Assembly (NCBI GenBank): GCA_027081755.1 | Contig: JALWJF010000062.1 | Span: 1-40,166 of the forward strand | DNA: 40,166 bases | Source: Desulfurococcales archaeon | GTDB taxonomy: Archaea; Thermoproteota; Thermoprotei_A; Sulfolobales; Ignicoccaceae | Direction: 5' to 3' | Part shown: positions 8,229 to 17,479 of the stretch, one piece after another | How positions within the stretch are numbered: the stretch's first letter is position 1 | How the letters are laid out: each line of letters starts with the position of its first letter | The notes under the pieces: generated by a model | Seen by the model: only the letters and a program-made list of their open reading frames with translations | Database searches by the model: none | What the model was told of the DNA's origin: nothing | Program-made: the position numbers and the translations under genes

Positions 8229-8603
8229 ATGGACTTTGGAGAAAAAGTCAAGAGAGTTGTTGAAGATTTCAACAAGAGATTTGCAGCTGAGTGTGAAGTA
8301 TTGAAAGCAGATGAACATGAGATAATAATTCACTTTAAAGGTCACATATGCTTCACATGTGGTACATACGACTACTTTGAAGATTTGGCTTATGACCTAA
8401 GCGATGCACTCGGTAAGAAGTATATACTTGCAGAATACGAGCAATTAGAAGACGGTACGTACATCGTAAAGTACAAACCAGAGGAGGAGGTTGATAGCAT
8501 AAAACGTGAAATAACTGTAATGCTCTATGACAAAGTGGAAAAAATCAGAATAGAGATTCCAACAAAGAGGAGTGAGAGTTTTGGGACAGAGTCCTCGAAT
8601 TAA
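8229..8603 (+). CDS. Hypothetical protein with HxxHICFTCGTYDYFEDL Cys motif
   Basis: Intact 124-aa ORF divergent from the zinc-ribbon gene and overlapping the next gene. Confidence 0.7.
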   Translation: MDFGEKVKRVVEDFNKRFAAECEVLKADEHEIIIHFKGHICFTCGTYDYFEDLAYDLSDALGKKYILAEYEQLEDGTYIVKYKPEEEVDSIKREITVMLYDKVEKIRIEIPTKRSESFGTESSN

Positions 8604-9201
8604 AGATGTAATAGTTTCTACGCTAATGCTCACACCCAGCGGTGCTTTCAGCCCAGGTTTGTTGAGCGCCGCGGCTGTAGCCTCTGGGACGGCATTGGGT
8701 CCCCTAGGAGGAGTACTAGTAAGCGCTGGCCACGTAGCTTTCGAACTGCCGTATCTTGTACTTCTAAGTGTCTTGCTCTCAAGCATACGCAAAGTCCTTC
8801 TAAGGTTCAAAAAAGTACTTTCAATCATCGTACTAGCATTCGCCACTTTCTTCGCTTATGGTCTATTAAGTGGAGGAAGTATGCCTAAGGTTACCATATC
8901 TGATGCCTTCTTAGCCGGTCTAGTATTTACTGCATCCAACGTCTATTTCTTGCTGTGGTGGGTCACGGTAGGCTTGCCACTTGTAGAAATTGGCAGCGTT
9001 TCTCGGAAACATTTCTTAGTAATGTACGCATCGCATGCATGGATGGACTTCCTCTGGCTAACGCTATTAGCTGCTGCAGGTCAGCTACTATTCTCAATAG
9101 CATTGAGTAAAGTGTTTAACATAGCACTAGCTAGCTTGATGATGTTATTCGCTATAGATATAGTGCTAAAAAGCTTCATAAACAGAGGAATCTTACCGTA
9201 G
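8572..9201 (+). CDS. LysE family transporter
   Basis: 209-aa polytopic protein; TPSGAFSPGLLSAAAVASGTALGPLGG near the N-terminus and six predicted hydrophobic segments; GTG start. Confidence 0.8.
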   Translation: MRVLGQSPRIKDVIVSTLMLTPSGAFSPGLLSAAAVASGTALGPLGGVLVSAGHVAFELPYLVLLSVLLSSIRKVLLRFKKVLSIIVLAFATFFAYGLLSGGSMPKVTISDAFLAGLVFTASNVYFLLWWVTVGLPLVEIGSVSRKHFLVMYASHAWMDFLWLTLLAAAGQLLFSIALSKVFNIALASLMMLFAIDIVLKSFINRGILP

Positions 9202-9256
9202 GGGATGAAGATAGCTAGATTGTCTGAACAGTGATGACGGTTTCGGGTCAAGACCC
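9202..9256 (+). ncRNA. Candidate double-guide C/D box sRNA
   Basis: C-like GGGATGA (9202-9208), 15-nt guide, D' CTGA (9224-9227), 3-nt spacer, perfect C' GTGATGA (9231-9237), 12-nt guide CGGTTTCGGGTC (9238-9249), degenerate D (AAGA), possible GGG/CCC closing stem. Confidence 0.6.
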
Positions 9257-12200
9257 GAAAAGTTCACCGTATTCGTAAAGCTTAAGCCTTTTGAGATCCA
9301 AGCATCCATATCTCCTATACATGTATTCGAAGGACTTGCTCAGTTCCTCTGCCAAGTATGAGTTCAAGACTAAGGGAACGTTTAGGTCAACGGCTGTCCT
9401 TCGCACAAGGTAATCCACTTTCTCGTCGCTTCCTGACGTCATTACAAACCCTATCTCTCCATTCACTAACATCTCTCTAACCCTTGACACATTGACTCTT
9501 TCAAAGCCTTCTAGGGGTCTCTCGTCCAACGTTACAACTTCGAAGCCCATTTCACTCATTCTTCTTGCCGCCGACTTCATTTTGTTAATATCGTCTTCGT
9601 AGTGCTCTAACGTATAGGCCAATACCTTCTTATTAGGTTTAGGTAAATTATTAGGAACTGCCGAGAGCCACGATAACAGCAATGCCTCTTCATATTTCTT
9701 CATGAAGGATGCTACTTCTCCTGTGGACCTCATTTCTGCCCCTAAATCAGGATAAGCACCCTTCAATTGAGCCCAACTGAACTGTGGACTCTTTACACCG
9801 TAAGTTCTAGCGGACGGAACGTAAATTTCCTTGTCTATACCCAAGCTTCCACTTAAGACGACCTTCGCTGCCAGCCTCATTAGATTTATATTCCTAGACT
9901 TGCTAGAGAATGGCATACTTCTGCTCGCTCTTAAGTTAGTTTCTATAACGTAAACATCATTACCGCTTACTATGAATTGTACGTTGAAGGGACCTCTTAT
10001 TTCTAGTTCTCTTGCTATCCGATAGGCAATATCCAATATTTTCTTTTCAATACTTTCTGAGAACATAAATGGTGTGACCATAGTTGAATCACCGGAGTGA
10101 ACGCCAGCAGGTTCAATGTGGCTAAGAGTTATCGCGATCACATGTTTAGAGTCAGAAACCGCATCTATCTCTGCCTCTCGAGCACCTACAATGAATTCTG
10201 AGATCACTACTGGATATTCCTCACTAACTTCGGCAGCCTTGACTAAGAATTCCTCTAACTCTTCCCAATTCCAGACCACTTTCATCCCAGCGCCACTTAG
10301 AACATAACTGGGTCTCACAATGACTGGGAAGCCGACCTCATCGATGAATATCTTTATTTCCCTCATGTTCTTTGCTGATATCCATTTGGGTTGCTTTATC
10401 CCTAACCTGTCCAATAGTTCTGAAAATTTCTCTCTGTTCTCGGCTATATCAACGCTCCTTCCAGAGGTCCCTAATATAGGAATGCCTAGAGATTCTAATT
10501 TCTTGTATAGACGGTTGGCTATCTGACCTCCAGCAAAAGCTATTACGCCCCACGGTCTCTCCCTTTTCGCTATCTTGTATACGGTTTCCAGTGTTAGCTC
10601 TTCAAAATAGAGCTTATCGCTTTCGTCCCAATCTGTGGATACAGTTTCGGGGTTATAGTTATGGATTATCACTTCTTCGGAATCATGCTCTTTAAGAGAA
10701 TGGGCTAAGGTAACCGTGGCCCAGTCGAACTCCACCGAGACTCCTATCCTAAAGACTCCAGCACCTAACACTATCGTCTTCATATGTTTTTTCTCAAAGC
10801 TTATATCATCTTCTTCAGCATCATGGGTTGTATAGAGATAGTTCGTCTTCGCAGGCCACTCTCCAGCTAAGGTGTCAATCCTCTTTACTCTAGGTAGAGT
10901 ACCCTTTATTATGTCCTTACTCACTTCCTCATCGCTAAAGCCTAGTATCTTAGCATACTCATAGTCAAACTCACCTTTCTCTATATCCTTTTTCATATCA
11001 ACAATTTCCTTTATCCAATAAACGAAATACTTATCCACACCATATACATCACTTACCTCATCGGGAGTGGCGCCCTCATACAAGGCCTTTGCCGCATACA
11101 AGGGCCAATATGGCTGCCTCTCCCTTAGGGCTTTCAATGCATCTTCCTTACTCAGCTTAGACAACTTTTTGAAATCAGTTAGTCCTTTATGACCTATGTC
11201 AAGCATCCTTATTGCCTTTTGCATGGCTTCGGCCACGTTCCTCCCTATAGCCATTACTTCTCCTACGCTCTTCATTTCGCTGTCAAGTCTCTTATCTACA
11301 CGCTCGAATTTATCCAAGTCCCATCGAGGTACCTTTATTACTACATAGTCCAAACTTGGCTCGAAGCAAGCACAAGTTATACCGGTTACTTTGTTTAATA
11401 TTTCCCATAATTTATAGCCTAAGGCTAGTTTTGCTGCTACATAAGCTAGGGGATAACCAGTAGCCTTACTGGCAAGAGCACTGCTCCTACTCATTCTAGG
11501 ATTGGTCTCTATCACGTAGTATGTCTCACCATGAGGATCCAAAGCTAACTGAACGTTGCCTTCTCCTATCATGCCTATGGTTTCAGCCACCTTTATTGAA
11601 GCATCCCTTAATATCTGGTACTCTCTATTAGTCAACGTCTGACAAGGTGCTATTACTACTGAATCTCCCGTGTGAATGCCCATGGGATCTAGGTTCTCAA
11701 GGCACGCGACCGCTATGGAATTACCATAAGCATCTCTAACCACCTCAAACTCAATTTCCTTCCAATGGTGAAGATATTTCTCTACTAGTACTTTTCCAAC
11801 ATCGCTCTGTGCAAAGGCCCTAGTTAACCACTTTTCAAATTCCTCCTCATTCCACGCTATGAAGCTTCCCTTCCCACCCAACGTGAAAGCTATCCTGACT
11901 ATTACTGGGAAACCTAACTTCTTAGCTGCCTCTAATGCCTCCTCTACACGTTTTGCTGGATAACTGGGTGGCATAGGTATTCCAGCTTCTTTCATCGTTT
12001 TTGAGAAGAGTGTTTTATCAGTCGCTTTTTCTATACCCTCTATAGGCGTACCTAATACTTTAATTCCATATTTCTTGAGCACACCTCTTTTCCACAGCTC
12101 CACTCCCAAGGTAAGGGCAGTTTGTCCGCCAAAACCAAACATCATTCCGTCAGGTCTTTCTTTTTCTATTATTTTCTCGAGCGTATCTATACGCAACGGT

Positions 12201-12382
12201 ACGAAGTATAGTCTATCTGCCAACTCTTTAGTGGTTTGAACTGTGGCCACGTTTGGATTAACAAGAACGCTCTCTATACCATCTTCTCTTAGCGCTTTTA
12301 AGGCTTGACTTGTACTGTAATCGAACTCAGCTGCTTCGCCTATCTTTATTCCTCCAGAGCCAATAACCATCACTTTTTTCAT
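9248..12382 (-). CDS. carB: Carbamoyl-phosphate synthase large subunit
   Basis: KKVMVIGSGGIKIGEAAEFDYSTSQALKALREDGIESVLVNPN; two ATP-grasp halves; ETNPRMSRSSALASKATGYPLA. Confidence 0.98.
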   Translation of the reverse strand: MKKVMVIGSGGIKIGEAAEFDYSTSQALKALREDGIESVLVNPNVATVQTTKELADRLYFVPLRIDTLEKIIEKERPDGMMFGFGGQTALTLGVELWKRGVLKKYGIKVLGTPIEGIEKATDKTLFSKTMKEAGIPMPPSYPAKRVEEALEAAKKLGFPVIVRIAFTLGGKGSFIAWNEEEFEKWLTRAFAQSDVGKVLVEKYLHHWKEIEFEVVRDAYGNSIAVACLENLDPMGIHTGDSVVIAPCQTLTNREYQILRDASIKVAETIGMIGEGNVQLALDPHGETYYVIETNPRMSRSSALASKATGYPLAYVAAKLALGYKLWEILNKVTGITCACFEPSLDYVVIKVPRWDLDKFERVDKRLDSEMKSVGEVMAIGRNVAEAMQKAIRMLDIGHKGLTDFKKLSKLSKEDALKALRERQPYWPLYAAKALYEGATPDEVSDVYGVDKYFVYWIKEIVDMKKDIEKGEFDYEYAKILGFSDEEVSKDIIKGTLPRVKRIDTLAGEWPAKTNYLYTTHDAEEDDISFEKKHMKTIVLGAGVFRIGVSVEFDWATVTLAHSLKEHDSEEVIIHNYNPETVSTDWDESDKLYFEELTLETVYKIAKRERPWGVIAFAGGQIANRLYKKLESLGIPILGTSGRSVDIAENREKFSELLDRLGIKQPKWISAKNMREIKIFIDEVGFPVIVRPSYVLSGAGMKVVWNWEELEEFLVKAAEVSEEYPVVISEFIVGAREAEIDAVSDSKHVIAITLSHIEPAGVHSGDSTMVTPFMFSESIEKKILDIAYRIARELEIRGPFNVQFIVSGNDVYVIETNLRASRSMPFSSKSRNINLMRLAAKVVLSGSLGIDKEIYVPSARTYGVKSPQFSWAQLKGAYPDLGAEMRSTGEVASFMKKYEEALLLSWLSAVPNNLPKPNKKVLAYTLEHYEDDINKMKSAARRMSEMGFEVVTLDERPLEGFERVNVSRVREMLVNGEIGFVMTSGSDEKVDYLVRRTAVDLNVPLVLNSYLAEELSKSFEYMYRRYGCLDLKRLKLYEYGELFGS

Positions 12383-17394: not shown

Positions 17395-17479
17395 TGCCGG
17401 GGGTGGGATTTGAACCCACGCAGGCCTACGCCATCGGGTCCTAAGCCCGACCCCTTTGGCCAGGCTCGGGCACCCCGGC
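17395..17479 (-). tRNA. tRNA-Leu(TAG)
   Basis: Reverse complement GCCGGGGTGCCCGAGCCTGGCCAAAGGGGTCGGGCTTAGGACCCGATGGCGTAGGCCTGCGTGGGTTCAAATCCCACCCCCGGCA; anticodon loop CTTAGGA gives TAG; long variable arm; A73. Confidence 0.95.

Follow-up and report, generated by a model that had tools for sequence, protein, structure and literature searches.

C/D box sRNAs are a well-known class of guide RNAs, in which the kink-turn or kink-loop formed by the boxes binds L7Ae and then Nop5 and fibrillarin. The guides of archaea are described as fast-evolving, with few methylation sites common between species. For other archaeal double guides, it has also been proposed that one RNA may hold two rRNA segments together during the folding of the rRNA. 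The closest described set is that of Ignicoccus hospitalis, for which 128 C/D sRNAs were reported by RNA-seq (Dennis et al. 2015, PMC4644070). These RNAs have two 12-nt guides, the box order C/D'/C'/D, a 3-nt spacer between D' and C', rRNA targets at the N+5 position and a location at the 3'-end of a protein gene.

In this study, we analyzed a 40,166-nt stretch of DNA (hereafter the window) from an Ignicoccus-like archaeon, whose genome (G000) is a Desulfurococcales-type MAG of 1.41 Mb in 159 contigs. The segment at 9201-9256 is very probably the gene for a double-guide C/D box sRNA, whose guides would direct methylation of U790 and C673 of the 23S rRNA (E. coli numbering). The RNA is a member of the known class and is alike to the I. 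hospitalis RNAs in all the points listed above; the differences are that the genus of the window RNA has eroded boxes C and D and that its guide pair is unusually widely kept. As judged by comparison of sequences, the assignment as a C/D box sRNA whose two guides are directed against domain II of the 23S rRNA is strongly supported by the occurrence of the RNA in 63 genomes and by covariation with the targets.

The sRNA gene between lysE and carB

The gene (9201-9256, plus strand) comprises 56 nt including the terminal stem, with its ends placed from the boxes, and sits between two convergent genes. Upstream on the same strand is lysE (8572-9201), which encodes a LysE-type translocator (Pfam LysE, 3e-13), and on the minus strand is carB (9248-12382), which encodes the large chain of carbamoyl-phosphate synthase and is confirmed by Pfam. 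The lysE stop codon TAG has its last base at 9201 and the carB stop codon occupies 9248-9250, and the 3'-end of carB is antisense to the sRNA over 9 nt (9248-9256). The initial annotation was right about this overlap but started the RNA at the base after the lysE stop codon, where the preferred 5'-end is the last base of that codon itself. Overlap with the 3'-end of a neighbour is common for C/D sRNA genes (PMC7994747).

Read from 9201 to 9256, the locus is GGG-G-ATGAAGA-TAGCTAGATTGT-CTGA-ACA-GTGATGA-CGGTTTCGGGTC-AAGA-CCC. Its terminal stem pairs GGG (9201-9203) with CCC (9254-9256), the 5' arm being followed by a 3-nt kink-turn bulge and then GA. Box C is ATGAAGA (9205-9211), with one mismatch to RUGAUGA and with the kink-turn GA retained; then come the D' guide TAGCTAGATTGT (9212-9223), a perfect box D' (CTGA, 9224-9227), the spacer ACA, a box C' that matches the consensus fully (GTGATGA, 9231-9237), the D guide CGGTTTCGGGTC (9238-9249) and finally box D (AAGA, 9250-9253), which departs from CUGA and keeps the kink-turn GA alone. 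From box D' to box D the sequence is exactly as first annotated, and so is the degeneracy of box D. Beyond the genus, every homologue has CTGA or CCGA at this place. The earlier reading of box C as GGGATGA (9202-9208) is another matter: the heptamer is present, but ATGAAGA fits the homologues better. We prefer the latter register because it gives a 12-nt guide as in nearly all homologues together with a GGG/CCC stem at the kink-turn end, and it is the register of the alignment to the out-group model R2.

Both strands of the window were scanned for exact boxes D' and C', with up to two mismatches permitted in C and in D. The scan returned this site alone, in two alternative C registers, and a search of the window for additional C/D sRNAs gave none. 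The random expectation is 0.02 sites per dinucleotide-model window, and the observed number is about 50-fold above it. Among random 12-mers of the window, 0.03% (a frequency of 0.0003) have a perfect 12-bp match to the I. hospitalis-like 16S and 23S rRNA and 1.6% have a match of 10 bp or more; the 16S locus used in this estimate included flanks, so the estimate is conservative. The locus is thus well outside what chance would give; the initial annotation had judged two independent guides to one rRNA neighbourhood to be unlikely by chance. At the gathering threshold, Rfam gives for the whole window two tRNA genes (2680-2765 and 17395-17479, both on the minus strand) and nothing else. On the sRNA, the families snoPyro_CD (RF00095), sR20 and sR36 score 20.3, 17.1 and 16.1 bits, below their gathering thresholds of 45, 44 and 55 bits, respectively. 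The box layout of snoPyro_CD can be aligned over the whole RNA, whereas the guides of the window sRNA are different and the score is below gathering, so that the latter is not a member of that family.

Predicted targets in domain II of 23S rRNA

The host assembly has no 23S rRNA save for a 3' fragment, and its own 16S is absent too; as the 23S target region is missing, the targets were checked in genomes of the same genus, including G003 (I. hospitalis-like, 1,297,538 bp) and G002 (I. islandicus-like, 1,394,664 bp). The E. coli numbering was verified by GUUGAAAAAU at 745. A guide was defined by a length of about 12 nt with at least 9 Watson-Crick pairs across the N+5 position, and such pairing is found in the I. 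hospitalis-like 23S rRNA (L036). There the D guide pairs without mismatch, by 12 of 12 Watson-Crick pairs, with nt 815-826 (GACCCGAAACCG), and its N+5 site in GACCC*GAAACCG is C819, corresponding to C673; this is the third C of GACCC*GAAACC, just as had been predicted. The D' guide forms 10 Watson-Crick pairs with CAAUCUAGCU from nt 934, and its N+5 site in CCAAU*CUAGCU, within CCAAUCUAGCU, is U937, corresponding to U790. The alignment of the guides to 23S rRNA thus holds, with the rRNA of relatives standing in for the missing host region.

The other half of the earlier target assignment has to be revised. It had placed the first target at AUCUAGC beside GACCCGAAACC and both targets within about 25 nt. 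At AUCUAG near GACCCGAAACC (about nt 830 of the I. hospitalis-like 23S rRNA), the D' guide can form no more than 7 contiguous Watson-Crick pairs, against 10 at CCAAUCUAGCU, 118 nt downstream; hence CCAAUCUAGCU is favoured and the former candidate is rejected. The two predicted sites, both in domain II, are actually 118 nt apart in sequence. The host 23S rRNA would contain the segments GACCCGAAACC and CCAAUCUAGC, and it is predicted to carry GACCCGAAACCG and CCAAUCUAGCU.

In yeast 25S rRNA, Um898 and Gm805 presumably correspond to U790 and to 673/674, respectively, or to directly adjacent positions. The yeast modifications are served by separate eukaryotic snoRNAs, unlike those predicted here, with snR40 guiding Um898 and snR39b guiding Gm805 (PMC8307265). 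In I. hospitalis itself, the copy of the sRNA, which is marked by GGATTGGCTGAAGGGGATGATGACGGTTTCGGGTC, may be the reported Iho sR472. Table 3 of PMC4644070 lists 23S C897 as its D target and G1017 as its D' target, in alignment numbering. As in the window RNA, the D target is a C, and the D' target is 120 alignment positions downstream, compared with 118 nt here; this spacing is compatible with identity, whereas the letter is discordant, since a G is listed where a U is predicted here. The offset between the numbering of that alignment and the I. hospitalis 23S rRNA is about 114-124 further downstream, and an offset of 78-80 at the present sites is plausible. In the literature on sR472, no paper besides PMC4644070 was found.

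Homologues and covariation with the targets

Pattern searches spanned 216 genomes of the order. The D guide pattern matched 12 genomes with one control match, and a 12-sequence model recovered full-length homologues in 63 genomes, including the source, from eight families (f1, f2, f3, f4, f6, f7, f9 and f10), with both guides in the same order throughout; the families f5, f8 and f11 gave partial or weak matches only. So that the search would not be circular, 16 sequences, all of them outside the genus, were used for a second model, which recovered the window with a score of 38.8 bits (E = 4e-11) as well as the three other genus members. The relatives do keep the boxes and guides, in line with what the initial annotation demanded of a genuine sRNA.

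Within the genus, the sRNA occurs at the same lysE-carB junction in G004 (WAOJ01000102) and in G003. Between the window and G004, the nearer of these two, the lysE-to-carB-stop stretch is 83% identical with gaps counted, compared with 38% for third codon positions of lysE. The copy of G002 is found at a different convergent junction (L074 108-161; G002:C1:1063307-1063360), where the TGA stop of the upstream ORF is inside box C; judging from this change of junction, either the sRNA gene or the genes around it changed place in the I. islandicus-like lineage. Having the stop codon of the upstream gene within a box is reported to be frequent among archaeal C/D genes (PMC7994747). The fifth genus member, G001 (a MAG, 81% complete), gave no copy.

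There are further arrangements outside the genus. A second sRNA of G138 (L057 near 1501, minus strand; G138:C174:984-999) has the GGTTTCTGG guide at D', joined to another guide, ACCCTGCCTAG, which may reflect guide duplication or shuffling. Four loci of family f6 (L063, L064, L065 and L066) combine the U790 guide (GGGCTAGATTG followed by CTGA) with different D guides, so some genera do not retain the pair. In family f11, where no full-length homologue was found, the 23S rRNA at the D target is GGCTAGAAACC or AACTAGAAACC, and guide loss may accompany the changed target.

Covariation was assessed in the 17 genomes for which sequences of the sRNA and of its 23S target are available, and since the search patterns permitted either guide base, agreement was not imposed. 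Position 673 and the guide base are C/G in five genomes and A/T in twelve, concordant in 17 of 17 cases, which are not phylogenetically independent and amount to about three separate switches. One switch falls inside the genus (C/G in G003, A/T in G002), and others are seen in f7 (G020) and f2. At the U790 target, the 23S rRNA of G020 has CCAATCGAGC (CCAAUCGAGC), and its guide, GGCTCGATTGG, has the matching C. The +5 base of the D' guide faces U790 in all 63 homologues, with a D'-like NNGA box after the guide. The site predicted for the D guide is 673 in 42 homologues, 674 in 18 and 672 in three, because small indels beside box D shift it; such sliding through indels is described for Methanopyrus sR24/25 (PMC4644070). 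The gene, its predicted targets and the co-evolution of guide and target are shown by comparison of genomes.

Proposed function and the eroded box D

As for the function, we infer that the RNA is expressed, probably by being cut or trimmed from the lysE transcript. A kink-turn or kink-loop would arise at C/D and at C'/D' alike and bind L7Ae, followed by Nop5 and fibrillarin. In the assembled RNP, the D' guide would pair with CAAUCUAGCU and direct 2'-O-methylation of U790, and the D guide would pair with GACCCGAAACCG and direct methylation of C673, an activity predicted despite the AAGA at box D. As both sites are in domain II and 118 nt apart, the sRNA may also hold the two 23S segments together during folding.

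The eroded box D admits another reading, namely that the D' guide methylates U790 while the D guide is inactive and binds the C673 segment as a chaperone. A box D without its first C is indeed confined to the four genus members, against CTGA or CCGA in the 59 others. However, the guide base G or T still tracks C673 or A673 of the 23S rRNA within the genus, the 12 perfect pairs and the kink-turn GA are retained, and a GC terminal stem accompanies the eroded boxes. Binding without methylation could also account for the tracking, and on the whole we consider an inactive D guide improbable.

Two further readings do without an sRNA. A perfect 9-bp palindrome, TTTCGGGTC-AA-GACCCGAAA, covers the D guide and the 3' codons of carB at 9241-9260 and is found in the window and in G004, so it could be taken for the transcription terminator of two convergent genes, with the C/D boxes being coincidental. 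Yet G003 has a shortened palindrome, and G002 and other homologues have none, while guides and boxes persist, and neither strand has a T run after it; such a terminator is very unlikely. It is hardly credible that the RNA is a chance resemblance conserved through the 3' coding end of carB: its final 9 nt are antisense to carB codons, but very little of the guides and of three of the boxes falls within either coding frame, the copy of the I. islandicus-like genome is at another gene pair and the same guides persist in the 59 copies found beyond the genus. The homologues refute this last reading, and a double-guide sRNA remains the preferred one.

All four genus members with the sRNA have eroded boxes C and D (box D being AAGA, AAGA, ATGA and GTGA) and a terminal stem of 2-3 bp. 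Over the whole family, the stem has at least 2 bp in 19 of 19 members with a non-consensus C or D and in 11 of 44 with consensus boxes, by a hand count in which G185 was read by eye; as members group by family and by GC content, this tally is a lead and not a test. We tentatively suggest, as a possibility that we rather doubt, that members of this sRNA family can tolerate eroded boxes C and D if a GC terminal stem lies immediately next to the kink-turn. If so, Ignicoccus would be the extreme case, with a working guide that has no canonical box D. The homologues form a clean natural series in which to examine what part of box D is required for a kink-turn. Across eight families, the guide pair is kept jointly and the guide tracks its rRNA target base for base, and this series allows asking whether a role in folding keeps the two guides on one RNA.
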